The notes beneath the pieces were generated by a model. That model did no database searches. It was not told the origin of the DNA and worked only from the letters and a program-made list of their open reading frames with translations. Below are positions 2,059-6,312 of a stretch of DNA of 24,760 nucleotides, in pieces (the stretch's first letter is position 1; each line of letters begins with the position of its first letter). The stretch comes from a virus. Position numbers and translations under genes: made by a program. The DNA lies in the IMG/VR virus record IMGVR_UViG_3300025853_000611, positions 1-24,760 of that record. The stretch is one strand, 5' to 3'.

Positions 2059-2265
2059 GTGAAAACTATTAAAATCACAGTACACGGGGAAAACCTCCTA
2101 CAAAAGCTTGCTGATATGCGTAAAAAATTTACCGACAGCGAGCATGTAGAAATACAAGAAGCTTATCTGCAAGCCATGTTTCCCCTTGAGACTGAAATCA
2201 TCGAGGAGATATGCGATGCCAACGATTTTGAAGCTGAGCAACCTGAGACTATACCAGTCCAGTGA
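2059..2265 (+). CDS. small hypothetical protein overlapping the integrase start
   Basis: 68 residues from GTG 2059, which has GAGGA 8 nt upstream; a TTG at 2044 is in frame but has no ribosome site. The protein begins MKTIKITVHGENLLQKLADM and becomes acidic toward the C-terminus. It overlaps the integrase by 50 nt in another frame. Its size and position would suit an excisionase or integrase regulator, but there is no recognisable winged-helix pattern and its Glu-rich makeup is unlike typical Xis proteins. Unknown function. Confidence 0.6.
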   Translation: MKTIKITVHGENLLQKLADMRKKFTDSEHVEIQEAYLQAMFPLETEIIEEICDANDFEAEQPETIPVQ

Positions 2266-3325
2266 TCGCGGCTTTCAGCTAGTCTGGAAAGACAAAAAGA
2301 CCAACAACCTCGTTAGGCGGCAAGTACCGCCTGACATTATCGACCCGCAAGCCTATGCTATAAAGATGAACCCGCTTGTTGGGCGTGGCTTGCTGGACAT
2401 TGATAAGCGAAACTTCACCCTTGCCCGGCTTGCGCCAGAATATCATGCCTTGCTTGATGAACAGGTGCATAACTTTGTGCAAGGCCATAAGTATGCCGAC
2501 AAGATTCGCCCAGCGCGGCGAGATTGCGTTAAGTCGCACATTAAGTTGCACATATTGCCCGCCTTGGGTGATCAGCCTATTGATCGCATAGAGCCAATCG
2601 ACGTAGCCAACCTGCAAGATGATCTTCGGCAAATCATGCTGCCGCAAACCGTCAACCCGGTGATTGGCACTTTGTCTCGCATGATGAAGTTCTTTGTGCG
2701 GCGCGGGTATATCGACAGCAATCCATGCAGAGACATAGACCCGCTTCGGGCTGTAAAGTCTGACCCGCGTTATACTCCCAGCAAAGAGGAAGTAGAGCGT
2801 GTGATTGCGCAATGCTCAGGCTGGAAGAAAACTATGGTTATGCTGGCCGCTGGCACTGGTATGCGGATTAGCGAAATCTTGGCCTTGGAATGGAGCAATA
2901 TATCTGGCGATACGATTAGCATTGAGGCGGGCGTAGTTAAGGGCAACATAGGTGCGCCTAAGACGCGAGAAAGCCGCCGTAAGCTGCGCGTGGATGCTAG
3001 GCTCAAGGTTAGGCTGTCAGAAATGCGATTGCAAAGCACGGGTGCGTTTTTGTTCACCAATAAGAATGGCAGATTGTTTAGCTCAGTGGATGTGCTGAAC
3101 AGGGTGCTATACCCGGCGGTGGACAGGGCTGGTGTGCAGAAGTTTGGCTTTCATGGATTGCGCAGGTTTTACGAGAATGAGCTGGAAGCGCAGGGCGTTA
3201 GGAAAGATCATATACAGCGCTTGATGGGCCATGAGATTGGCAGCAAGGTGACTGACAAGCATTACCGTGTGGTGCGTCAGGAAGATGTGCTGCGGGATGA
3301 CTATGTGATAGAGGTGGGGGGTTAG
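2216..3325 (+). CDS. int: tyrosine site-specific integrase
   Basis: 369 residues from ATG 2216, with GAGGAG 7 nt upstream. The N-terminal region (1-60) resembles arm-type DNA-binding domains. A core-binding SAM-like helical domain (about 75-175) is followed by the catalytic domain. The catalytic set is visible: Arg217 (GTGMRISEIL), Lys in VVKGN, His313 and Arg316 (HGLRR), His339 (LMGHEIG) and nucleophile Tyr350 (KHYRV). It joins phage attP to the bacterial attB; the tRNA-Arg(CCU) segment 350 bp upstream is the likely crossover site. The gene overlaps the upstream small ORF and converges on the repressor gene, with the two stop regions overlapping by 4 nt. Confidence 0.95.
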   Translation: MPTILKLSNLRLYQSSDRGFQLVWKDKKTNNLVRRQVPPDIIDPQAYAIKMNPLVGRGLLDIDKRNFTLARLAPEYHALLDEQVHNFVQGHKYADKIRPARRDCVKSHIKLHILPALGDQPIDRIEPIDVANLQDDLRQIMLPQTVNPVIGTLSRMMKFFVRRGYIDSNPCRDIDPLRAVKSDPRYTPSKEEVERVIAQCSGWKKTMVMLAAGTGMRISEILALEWSNISGDTISIEAGVVKGNIGAPKTRESRRKLRVDARLKVRLSEMRLQSTGAFLFTNKNGRLFSSVDVLNRVLYPAVDRAGVQKFGFHGLRRFYENELEAQGVRKDHIQRLMGHEIGSKVTDKHYRVVRQEDVLRDDYVIEVGG

Positions 3326-3331
3326 CCCCCC
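3316..3331. repeat. G6/C6 hairpin at the convergent int and repressor stop codons
   Basis: GGGGGG (3316-3321), loop TTAG, CCCCCC (3326-3331). The loop encodes the integrase TAG on the plus strand and the repressor TAA on the minus strand. There is no T tract on either side, so it may act as an RNA 3'-end stabiliser or a factor-assisted bidirectional stop, not a classical terminator. Confidence 0.55.
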
Positions 3332-3984
3332 GACCTGCTTCTTTGACTGCCGACAACCACATGCACAGCATATAGATCGGCTTTGTTGAAATGCACAGGC
3401 TTACCGCTGCGCACATCTTGAGCAATAACTTTGTCTTCGGTAAGCTCTACAAGCTCACGAAAAATGCCCACGATTTTATCCTGTTGCTGGAACATTAGCA
3501 CAATGTCATCTTTTGGCTGTGCGTCCAGTGTAGGATCAACGAAGAGTGTATCGCCAGAAAAATACCTTGGTTCCATAACAGAGCCAAAATTCACGGCGGC
3601 ATAGGCTTCGCCTGAGTAATCTAAAAAGGATGGTTTTCTAATCTGCGTTTGTGCAGCATTACCTGCACGTAGAACAAAACCATCGCCTTTATCGAATGTT
3701 TGGCCCATTGATTGTTTCTCATTATAAAGCGGAATAAACACGGCTGTGCCTTGCGCTTGCGTAAATGACCGAAATGCTGGTTGCACTTCTGTAGCTTCAT
3801 CCATTAGTTCAGCTACGTTTACATTTAGCGCTTCTGCTATTCTCATCAGCTTATCGGCAGCGGGCGCTTTTATAATGCCCTTCTCGATTTTGCTAATGTT
3901 AGCTTGGCTAACCTTGCTTAGCTCCGCTAGTTGCTCCTGCGATACATTTAGTTCGCGTCTAATTTTGTACAGCTTTGTGTACAT
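3322..3984 (-). CDS. CI-like phage repressor (HTH plus S24/LexA-fold domain)
   Basis: 220 residues, leftward. An N-terminal HTH_3 domain (about 4-60, with VSQEQLAELSKVSQANISKIE) is followed by an S24-type C-terminal domain (about 100-210) with YAAVNFGSVMEPRYFSGDTL. It should bind operators in 3985-4381 and keep lysogeny, repressing the divergent Cro/early operon. The motif usually written GDSMEP reads GSVMEP here, so the residue before Met is Val136. The position of the catalytic Lys, after DDIVLMFQQQDKIV, appears to be Gly173. Self-cleavage may therefore be lost. The gene converges on int. Confidence 0.88.
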   Translation of the reverse strand: MYTKLYKIRRELNVSQEQLAELSKVSQANISKIEKGIIKAPAADKLMRIAEALNVNVAELMDEATEVQPAFRSFTQAQGTAVFIPLYNEKQSMGQTFDKGDGFVLRAGNAAQTQIRKPSFLDYSGEAYAAVNFGSVMEPRYFSGDTLFVDPTLDAQPKDDIVLMFQQQDKIVGIFRELVELTEDKVIAQDVRSGKPVHFNKADLYAVHVVVGSQRSRSGG

Positions 3985-4603: not shown

Positions 4604-5021
4604 TGCCCGCGATAAGGGTCGCAGAGGCGAATACCAAGTCGGCCAGCAATACTTTGAGCATATGGGGATTCGCCTCAAGCGCGACATCGAGCAATACCGC
4701 GCTGCTGATCATGGTGACTTGCTGGCAGATGGCGATTTTGATTGGCCGTTTTGCATCGAAGTAAAAACCTATGGCGGGCTGAATGTAACGCATCAGCCAA
4801 GCTGGTGGGAGCAGGTCAGCAAAGCAGCAGATGCACAAAAGCTCATGCCTGTGCTGTGGTATAAGTATGACCGCCGAGATTGGCGAGTAGTCATGCGGGC
4901 CAACAACGTCAGCTTTGCGCTGGGCGGTACGCTTGGCCACGATGACATGCTGCTCACCATGAACGCTGACACATGCTTTTACCTCAGCAGAGAAATACTG
5001 GCAGCGAGGGCAGGCGTATGA
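4596..5021 (+). CDS. PD-(D/E)XK endonuclease, Holliday-junction-resolvase-like
   Basis: 141 residues. KGRRGEYQVGQQYFEHMGI gives Glu12 in the first helix, HGDLLADGDFDWPFCIEVKTY gives Asp41 and Glu55-Val-Lys57, the complete PD-(D/E)XK catalytic set. The layout resembles the small phage and archaeal Hjc-like resolvases (PDDEXK_15 type). It probably trims or resolves branched recombination intermediates during replication and packaging. It is tightly coupled: it overlaps the Cro-like gene by 8 nt and the methyltransferase by 4 nt (ATGA). A restriction-like or homing function cannot be excluded, but the early-operon position favours resolvase. Confidence 0.72.
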   Translation: MVNARDKGRRGEYQVGQQYFEHMGIRLKRDIEQYRAADHGDLLADGDFDWPFCIEVKTYGGLNVTHQPSWWEQVSKAADAQKLMPVLWYKYDRRDWRVVMRANNVSFALGGTLGHDDMLLTMNADTCFYLSREILAARAGV

Positions 5022-6154
5022 GGTACGGCTCTGTCTGCTCTGGCGTGGAAGCTGCAACTGTCGCCTGGCACTCGCTTGGCTGGGAGCCGAAATGGTTTAG
5101 CGAAATTGAAAAGTTCCCTAGCGCAGTTTTGCAGCATCACTATCCCGACACGCCAAATCACGGCGACATGACGCAATTTAAGGAGTGGCCTGATGAACCA
5201 ATTGACCTTCTCGTGGGGGGAACCCCTTGCCAAAGCTTCTCAGTCGCTGGCCTTCGAAAAGGACTTGCTGACCCGCGCGGAAACCTCATGCTCACCTATC
5301 TTGCCATTTCTGCACGCTATCAGCCCAACTGGCTGGTTTGGGAGAACGTCCCCGGCGTCTTGTCTAGCAACAGAGGACGGGATTTTGGCACCTTCCTTGG
5401 GGCGTTGGCAGAACTCGGGTATGGGTTCGCCTACAGAGTGCTTGACGCTCAGTATTTCGGAGTGGCCCAAAGACGCAGGCGTGTGTTCGTTGTCGGATAC
5501 CTTGGAGATTGGAAACGTGCCGCAGCGGTTCTATTTGAGCGCGAAAGCCTGTCAGGGCATTCTGCGCCGAGCAGACAAACGCGGGAAGAAACTGCCGGAA
5601 CAGTTAAAACACGCTCTGGAAGCGGTGGCGGCGGCGGGCTAGGCACTGACGAAGCTTGCGCAGGCTATTTGCAACCGACTTGGCCCGCTAAGGTCGCTTC
5701 TACGCTAAACGCAGCATTTGCTGAAAAGCAGGGCTTGGAAGATCAGCATATAAATGGTGGCGCACCGCTGTTTGTGCCGCAAAGCACTGGCCCGCTTACT
5801 GCTGGCATGGGCAAAGGCCCGCGCGGTACTGAGGGCGTAGAAAGTAATCATGTCATTGCATTTCCCGCTGAAATGAGTGGAACGCAAGCAGCCTCAGCTA
5901 AAAATATAAGCCCTGCTTTATCAGTAAAGCACACAACTGCATTAGCAAATGACCTTCAAGTACGCCGCCTAACGCCAACCGAGTGCGAGCGTTTGCAAGG
6001 CTTTCCCGACAACTACACGCAAATCCCGTATCGCAACAAGCCAGCGGAAAGCTGTCCAGATGGCCCTCGCTACAAGGCTATGGGCAACTCAATGGCTGTG
6101 CCTGTCATGCGCTGGATTGGCGAGCGGATCAACATGGTGGAGGCATTAGCATGA
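5018..6154 (+). CDS. DNA C5-cytosine methyltransferase
   Basis: 378 residues from ATG 5018. Motif I, YGSVCSGVEAATVAW, binds S-adenosylmethionine. Motif IV, GGTPCQSFS, holds nucleophile Cys71. Motif VI is WENVPG (Glu109), motif VIII is AQRRRRVFVVG, and motifs IX-X are near the C-terminus (RRLTPTECERLQGFPDNY and YKAMGNSM). The variable target-recognition region (about 190-300) contains a Gly-rich linker. It methylates cytosine at carbon 5 in an unknown site. With no restriction enzyme beside it, it is best read as self-protection against host restriction. A second, out-of-frame gene lies inside (5193-5642). It overlaps both neighbours by 4 nt. Confidence 0.95.
   Translation: MRYGSVCSGVEAATVAWHSLGWEPKWFSEIEKFPSAVLQHHYPDTPNHGDMTQFKEWPDEPIDLLVGGTPCQSFSVAGLRKGLADPRGNLMLTYLAISARYQPNWLVWENVPGVLSSNRGRDFGTFLGALAELGYGFAYRVLDAQYFGVAQRRRRVFVVGYLGDWKRAAAVLFERESLSGHSAPSRQTREETAGTVKTRSGSGGGGGLGTDEACAGYLQPTWPAKVASTLNAAFAEKQGLEDQHINGGAPLFVPQSTGPLTAGMGKGPRGTEGVESNHVIAFPAEMSGTQAASAKNISPALSVKHTTALANDLQVRRLTPTECERLQGFPDNYTQIPYRNKPAESCPDGPRYKAMGNSMAVPVMRWIGERINMVEALA
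5193..5642 (+). CDS. overprinted ORF inside the methyltransferase gene
   Basis: 149 residues in the +1 frame relative to the methyltransferase, wholly inside it. It has a perfect AAGGAG (5180-5185) 7 nt before ATG 5193, unusual for a chance internal frame. The protein begins MNQLTFSWGEPLAKASQS and ends with NVPQRFYLSAKACQGILRRA, then KRGKKLPEQL and ALEAVA. I recall ORFs with this C-terminal pattern (PxRFFLSxKACxGILRRAxxRGKxLP) as recurrent hypothetical proteins in phage genomes with such methyltransferases. The overlap covers methyltransferase motifs IV to VIII. Function unknown; candidate accessory to methylation or counter-defence. Confidence 0.65.
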   Translation: MNQLTFSWGEPLAKASQSLAFEKDLLTRAETSCSPILPFLHAISPTGWFGRTSPASCLATEDGILAPSLGRWQNSGMGSPTECLTLSISEWPKDAGVCSLSDTLEIGNVPQRFYLSAKACQGILRRADKRGKKLPEQLKHALEAVAAAG

Positions 6155-6312
6155 GCATTTGTCCTACCTGTGATGGCGAAGGGTATTACGAAAAAGAATA
6201 CGCAGTCGCAGATTATGTAAACGGTGGTTATCTCGCAGCAAAATGGGTGCAATGCGAAGATTGCTTTGGCTCTGGCGATGACTTTGATGTGCTGGACGAT
6301 GGCGATGAGTAA
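6151..6312 (+). CDS. small CxxCxGxG zinc-ribbon protein
   Basis: 53 residues, overlapping the methyltransferase stop (ATGA). It has two DnaJ-type knuckles, CPTCDGEG (residues 4-11) and CEDCFGSG, separated by about 24 residues, then an acidic tail (DDFDVLDDGDE). Four cysteines should bind one zinc. Such mini DnaJ-like zinc-ribbon proteins are common in phage early regions, where their role is unknown. Confidence 0.75.
   Translation: MSICPTCDGEGYYEKEYAVADYVNGGYLAAKWVQCEDCFGSGDDFDVLDDGDE

Follow-up and report, generated by a model that had tools for sequence, protein, structure and literature searches.

Evidence for a conserved overlapping gene inside phage C5-cytosine methyltransferase genes, with a tail related to an in-frame methyltransferase segment

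The viral contig analyzed here (the window, 24,760 bases) carries a C5-cytosine DNA methyltransferase gene that almost certainly encloses a second, conserved protein-coding gene in its +1 frame, a reading of the sequences that we favor because coding constraint among relatives and homology of the C-terminal tail both point to it. The wider explanation, in which the tail would come from a segment of M.HhaI-type enzymes, both proteins would be made, and the small one would supply or modulate that segment in trans, is in our judgment evenly balanced between right and wrong. To our knowledge, conservation beyond close relatives has rarely been shown for long same-strand overlaps that run through a catalytic core. 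If the gene is real, each of hundreds of phage methyltransferase genes would encode two proteins, and published experiments on such genes, once cloned, may have included both. The arrangement is preserved from phages of marine bacteria to Streptococcus phages; it would be a clear test case for an enzyme piece relocating to an overlapping frame, and it may help explain phage methyltransferases with unusual recognition regions.

The window probably derives from a temperate phage, given its integrase-like and Cro/CI-type repressor-like genes (Table 1). The 3' end of the PDDEXK_15 nuclease gene shares a few bases with the start of the methyltransferase gene. Adjoining the methyltransferase on its other side, positions 6151-6312 encode a small protein, rich in cysteine, that weakly matches the restriction alleviation protein Lar (E = 0.0007, below the cut-off). 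PADLOC matched methyltransferase models at this locus and no others.

Table 1. Coordinates of features in the window.
Feature	Position	Strand	Basis or remark
Integrase-like gene	2186-3325		
Cro/CI-type repressor-like gene	3322-3984	minus	
PDDEXK_15 phage nuclease	4596-5021		E = 1.1e-15; immediately 5' of methyltransferase
C5-cytosine DNA methyltransferase, 378 aa, enclosing the overlap	5018-6154	+	Pfam PF00145, E = 1.7e-56
Shine-Dalgarno AAGGAG for hidden ORF	5180-5185	+	direct reading; 7 nt before ATG
Putative hidden overlapping gene, +1 frame, ATG start, 149 codons (149 aa)	5193-5642	+	open-frame and four-fold-site tests
Motif IV (PCQ) of methyltransferase	5225	+	
Motif VIII (QRRRR) of methyltransferase	5468-5482	+	
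Hidden-frame element LSDTLEIGNVPQRFYLS, probably homologous to in-frame C5 methyltransferase segment	5490-5540	+	hidden-frame-only HMM, hhalign
Predicted C-terminal two-helix hairpin, hidden residues 117-148	5541-5636	+	AlphaFold2 helices H117-130, H136-148

The hidden reading frame and its coding constraint

Direct reading confirmed the ORF as set out in the preliminary description, with 149 codons, its own ATG and an AAGGAG at a spacing of 7 nt. It lies entirely within the methyltransferase ORF, spanning codons 59-209 of the latter, and overlaps motifs IV through VIII and slightly more. The closest in-frame stop 5' of the hidden ATG is 7 codons away, and the AAGGAG doubles as the methyltransferase codons for the "KE" of FKEW.

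Distinct relative genes (68) were gathered with the methyltransferase protein as the query, and the hidden frame therefore played no part in their selection. The difference at four-fold degenerate sites was 0.58 upstream, 0.197 within the ORF and 0.54 downstream, with a minimum of 0.046 at methyltransferase codons 181-200, near the ORF end; these pairwise rates ignore phylogeny, and three separate clades agree. The +1 frame was open in 63 of the 68 relatives, compared to 0.19 expected when synonymous codons were redrawn with the protein fixed, and the third (+2) frame, used as a control, was open in none. Four of the five relatives without an open +1 frame end within the tested stretch, and the fifth (L011) has an internal stop. 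At codons 181-200, differences at methyltransferase positions 1, 2 and 3 were 0.44, 0.18 and 0.14; position 1, the most variable, is third in the codons of the hidden frame. Identity over codons 181-200 was 0.80 in the hidden frame vs. 0.54 in the methyltransferase frame. Hidden-frame identity was 0.63-0.85, against 0.27-0.36 expected from synonymous redraws with the methyltransferase protein fixed. The reduced synonymous change, and the two constrained frames through the catalytic core that had been claimed, were thus both found in the four-fold drop, the hidden-frame periodicity and the number of open frames.

It is hardly credible that there is no second protein, with the pattern arising from methyltransferase conservation alone or from a constraint on RNA or DNA. 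The internal stop in one relative would suit that reading, but the open frames and a hidden-frame identity of 0.8 vs. 0.27 were both obtained against a fixed methyltransferase protein, codon periodicity following the hidden frame largely refutes it, and between phyla the hidden frame is conserved where the methyltransferase frame is not. An open frame arising as a by-product of methyltransferase conservation was ruled out by the synonymous redraws together with the periodicity.

The start region of the probable gene carries signals of its own. A hidden-frame ATG was present there in 52 of the 68 relatives (null mean 24, maximum 31), and across 54 non-redundant relatives the duplex of the anti-Shine-Dalgarno with the stretch preceding the hidden ATG averaged −7.6 kcal/mol vs. 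−4.6 ± 0.3 kcal/mol for redrawn codons. The Shine-Dalgarno match is thus stronger than the methyltransferase codons demand, and the separate start signal claimed earlier held up at the level of sequence. Many genes of the Streptococcus clade have AAAGGAG as the signal; that of the enterobacterial clade is weak (mean −3.2), yet above the null. Local RNA structure around the hidden start was not notable (z 0.95).

Distribution across phage clades

The four-fold drop over the hidden ORF was repeated in two more clades, one enterobacterial/P1-like (76 sequences) and one from Streptococcus (56 sequences). The position of the hidden ATG in the gene differs between clades; in each, constraint set in close to that ATG and finished near the hidden stop. 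Of nine distant pairs, seven had 48-70% identity in the hidden frame and 20-43% in the methyltransferase frame over the same DNA; in the other two, with the hidden frame at 70%, the methyltransferase frame stood at 51% (window-Vibrio) and 66% (window-Caulobacter). Conservation across distant phages was limited to the C-terminal ~50 hidden residues. The first ~90 residues differ among clades, and their codons are constrained too. The suggestion that the overlap may be conserved was therefore supported, by constraint in three clades and by retention of the hidden frame across distant pairs, and on these comparisons it appears to be a stronger and older case than first claimed.

Searches of phage records gave 149 matches with the whole hidden protein and 399 with a C-terminal query, most of them assigned by the underlying annotated gene alone, which bore out the earlier suggestion of a recurring C-terminal phage-protein pattern. 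Matches in the +1 frame were seen, among the phages checked, in Roseobacter phage CRP-821, Caulobacter phage DMCA, Mycobacterium phage Lucky2013, Enterobacter phage CobraSix, P1-like phage JL22 and Vibrio phage K453, and in Streptococcus, Lactococcus, Clostridioides, Bacillus, Weissella and Oscillospirales phages. The hosts belong to Proteobacteria, Actinobacteria and Firmicutes, and annotated records also include Enterobacteriaceae. As to whether matches are always hidden inside a methyltransferase gene, every frame-resolved match did lie inside one, but in a few other enzymes the conserved C-terminal segment is read in the frame of the methyltransferase itself.

The tail was in the +1 frame at 538 classified loci, starting 5 codons downstream of the motif VIII start in 525, 6 codons in 12 and 7 codons in one; many of these loci are near-duplicates, so the counts do not represent independent events. 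The 80 top-ranked loci in bacterial genomes were +1 to a methyltransferase, as were the loci that the C-terminal queries found in IMG/VR, and no free-standing hidden gene was among them. Seemingly free-standing cases, among those read, came down to contig ends, runs of N or odd motif spelling; in L285 the cause was an intein-like insertion, and in L404 and L287 a frameshift in the methyltransferase.

Several loci depart from the usual layout. In L285 (1368-3950), a big insertion with intein-like features sits at the catalytic PC motif, and the hidden ORF downstream is intact. In L404 (2530-3995), L287 (1852-3599) and L282 (2557-3588), the N- or C-terminal half of the methyltransferase is in the hidden frame or shortened, and these appear to be natural frameshifts, pseudogenes or sequencing errors. 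In Mycobacterium phage Thibault (L600, 20-2150), HNH genes interrupt the methylase pieces gp102 and gp105. The annotated gp104 of the same phage (81 aa) has the hidden-frame tail at its end and a different upstream sequence, the junction being perhaps an intron boundary.

The C-terminal tail and its in-frame relatives

The conserved tail has the pattern LSDxLE..VPQRYFLSxKACxGILRRAxKRGKxLPxxLxxAL. An HMM built from hidden-frame tails alone matched the in-frame segment of nine methyltransferases (E 2.8e-9 to 0.013), the best among 920 shuffled proteins used as a control reaching E 0.18, and profile-profile comparison (hhalign) of the hidden tail with the in-frame segment gave a probability of 97%. 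By these alignments, the hidden tail and the in-frame segment of other C5 methyltransferases are evidently homologous. Weak matches pointed to the element in the methyltransferase's own frame in phages of Bacteroides (BT12, LRDVLQSEVPEKYYLSDK...), Riemerella (CRP5, LKDILEEEVEEKFYLSKK...) and Staphylococcus (EPI14, LVDILEKDVDERYYLSEE...), where it lies 21-33 codons past motif VIII. Scanning with the in-frame enzyme from Bacteroides gave no matches. In M.HhaI, the stretch FELNTFVKDLL directly precedes the target-recognition domain. The alignment identified this stretch as the equivalent of the in-frame element; in M.HhaI-type enzymes (1FJX, 10MH) the segment following motif VIII is thus in cis, whereas the window phage has it in a +1 overlapping gene. 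This homology, which was missing from the preliminary description, provides an origin and a likely partner for the hidden gene.

The overlapping and in-frame forms appear to be mutually exclusive, since none of the 538 overlapping-type enzymes has the element in its own methyltransferase frame and the +1 frame was closed in all five in-frame enzymes checked (3-10 stops over the tested stretch), a small in-frame sample that was found partly via the motif itself.

The in-frame position also bears on programmed +1 ribosomal frameshifting near motif VIII, by which the N-terminal half of the methyltransferase would be joined to the hidden tail in a truncated second isoform. In such a fusion the element would follow motif VIII, the arrangement of M.HhaI-type enzymes, and constraint is indeed strongest from motif VIII onward. 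We nonetheless consider frameshifting improbable, because the open frame and its constraint reach ~90 codons further upstream, to the internal start codon of each clade, and the Shine-Dalgarno is conserved.

For a separately started protein, we infer translation, evolutionary direction and action on the methyltransferase as follows. Translation would begin at the internal ATG and Shine-Dalgarno inside the methyltransferase message and end in the variable region, giving the putative product. Its tail would have descended from the own-frame segment that joins motif VIII to the target-recognition domain in M.HhaI-type enzymes; this segment would have gone from the methyltransferase frame in the overlapping group and survived in the +1 frame. 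A presumed deletion with a frameshift after motif VIII would account for both the change of frame and the drop in spacing from 21-33 to 5 codons. On the 5' side of motif VIII, the hidden frame would be overlaid on the old methyltransferase core; on the 3' side the order of age would be reversed, with the methyltransferase reading (GYLGDW..AAAVLFE or GHLRG..GRxVFPI) newer than the hidden frame. One message would yield both proteins; the small one would bind to the methyltransferase or to its complex with DNA, and would provide in trans, or modulate, the element that the enzyme no longer has in cis. The most specific version, in which an ancestral frameshift moved part of the enzyme to the +1 frame, where it gained a start and acts in trans, so that these are widespread two-frame, two-protein phage methyltransferases, is tentative, and we regard it as rather doubtful.

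Possible action of the hidden protein and comparison with known systems

The confident fold of the hidden protein is limited to its C-terminal ~40 residues, where AlphaFold2 predicted the hairpin with a mean pLDDT of 93-97 over residues 121-149; the model was poor elsewhere. The predicted hairpin is basic. The window protein matched no Pfam family at E ≤ 1, and Pfam applied to 27 hidden-protein relatives returned four unrelated families at chance level, HNH not among them. Foldseek found no PDB structure similar to the hidden model at E ≤ 0.001, and querying solved structures with the hidden protein produced no convincing match.

The predicted methyltransferase model has a core resembling M.HhaI (structural match, Z 21.6), with residues 175-315 unmodelled. 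These residues (5540-5962) are very variable and unlike the usual target-recognition domain. The methyltransferase frame retains motifs I-X, including IX-X (RRLTPTECERLQGFPD... GNSMAVPV) within 5018-6154; since they remain in its frame, the enzyme may be active without the hidden protein.

The small subunit of M.EcoHK31I is likewise encoded in an overlapping alternative frame. M.EcoHK31I and M.AquI are natural two-polypeptide C5 methyltransferases, whose small subunits carry motif IX and motifs IX-X, respectively (PMC3404938), and C5 methyltransferases tolerate splitting in the region after motif VIII (PMC3404938, PMC3439449). Because of this tolerance, and because two natural enzymes use a second polypeptide, the simplest function to propose is action on the enclosing methyltransferase, which we rate a little short of an even chance. 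As in those enzymes, a C5 methyltransferase would be accompanied by a second small polypeptide carrying part of the usual chain. Unlike in them, the large frame keeps motifs I-X and the small protein has the segment from motif VIII to the target-recognition domain; with IX-X retained, the window pair lacks the defining feature of the EcoHK31I and AquI split enzymes, the presence of motif IX (and X) in the small polypeptide and its absence from the large one.

The strongest alternative gives the hidden protein an independent role in regulation or counter-defence: it would be real and act elsewhere, as a small regulator or counter-defence factor in which an ancient piece of methyltransferase serves for binding or mimicry, with host restriction or host methyltransferases, for example, as targets. 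The phage location, the neighboring PDDEXK nuclease and sub-cut-off Lar-like protein, and the basic helical hairpin would all fit such a role, as would Lactococcus phage 4268 (L568, 1014-1596), where the methyltransferase frame ends at 185 aa, just past motif VIII (VFPITRESK*), beside a whole hidden ORF. No free-standing copy was found, however, PADLOC recognized only the methyltransferase, and the strict coupling of the hidden protein to one enzyme type at the loci surveyed suggests that the two are connected. We therefore hold an independent role to be unlikely, although appreciably less so than frameshifting.

An out-of-frame ORF within a phage methylase gene has a precedent in the ShiLan domain, an HNH endonuclease hidden in a mycobacteriophage methylase (PMC11855218). 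That domain is a mobile insertion encoding an HNH nuclease with a patchy spread, whereas the hidden ORF is conserved, lies over the catalytic core and has no HNH match. A ShiLan-type element was ruled out, as the ORF has no HNH match and is not an insertion.

In the literature searched, which included few subscription journals, no account of this overlap was found. The hidden-protein family corresponds to PHROG 16143 ("DNA methyltransferase", 139 aa), which was matched by the window protein (E = 2.1e-10) and by the hidden ORFs of IPP64 (3e-76) and Streptococcus phage 94 (1.7e-86). Its entry is silent on the overlap, and its name is wrong, as the hidden protein is not a methyltransferase. In most of the phage records read, the hidden ORF was unannotated or mislabelled; a few annotate it, and in Streptococcus phage P0093 it appears as CDS P0093_47 under the name DNA methyltransferase.
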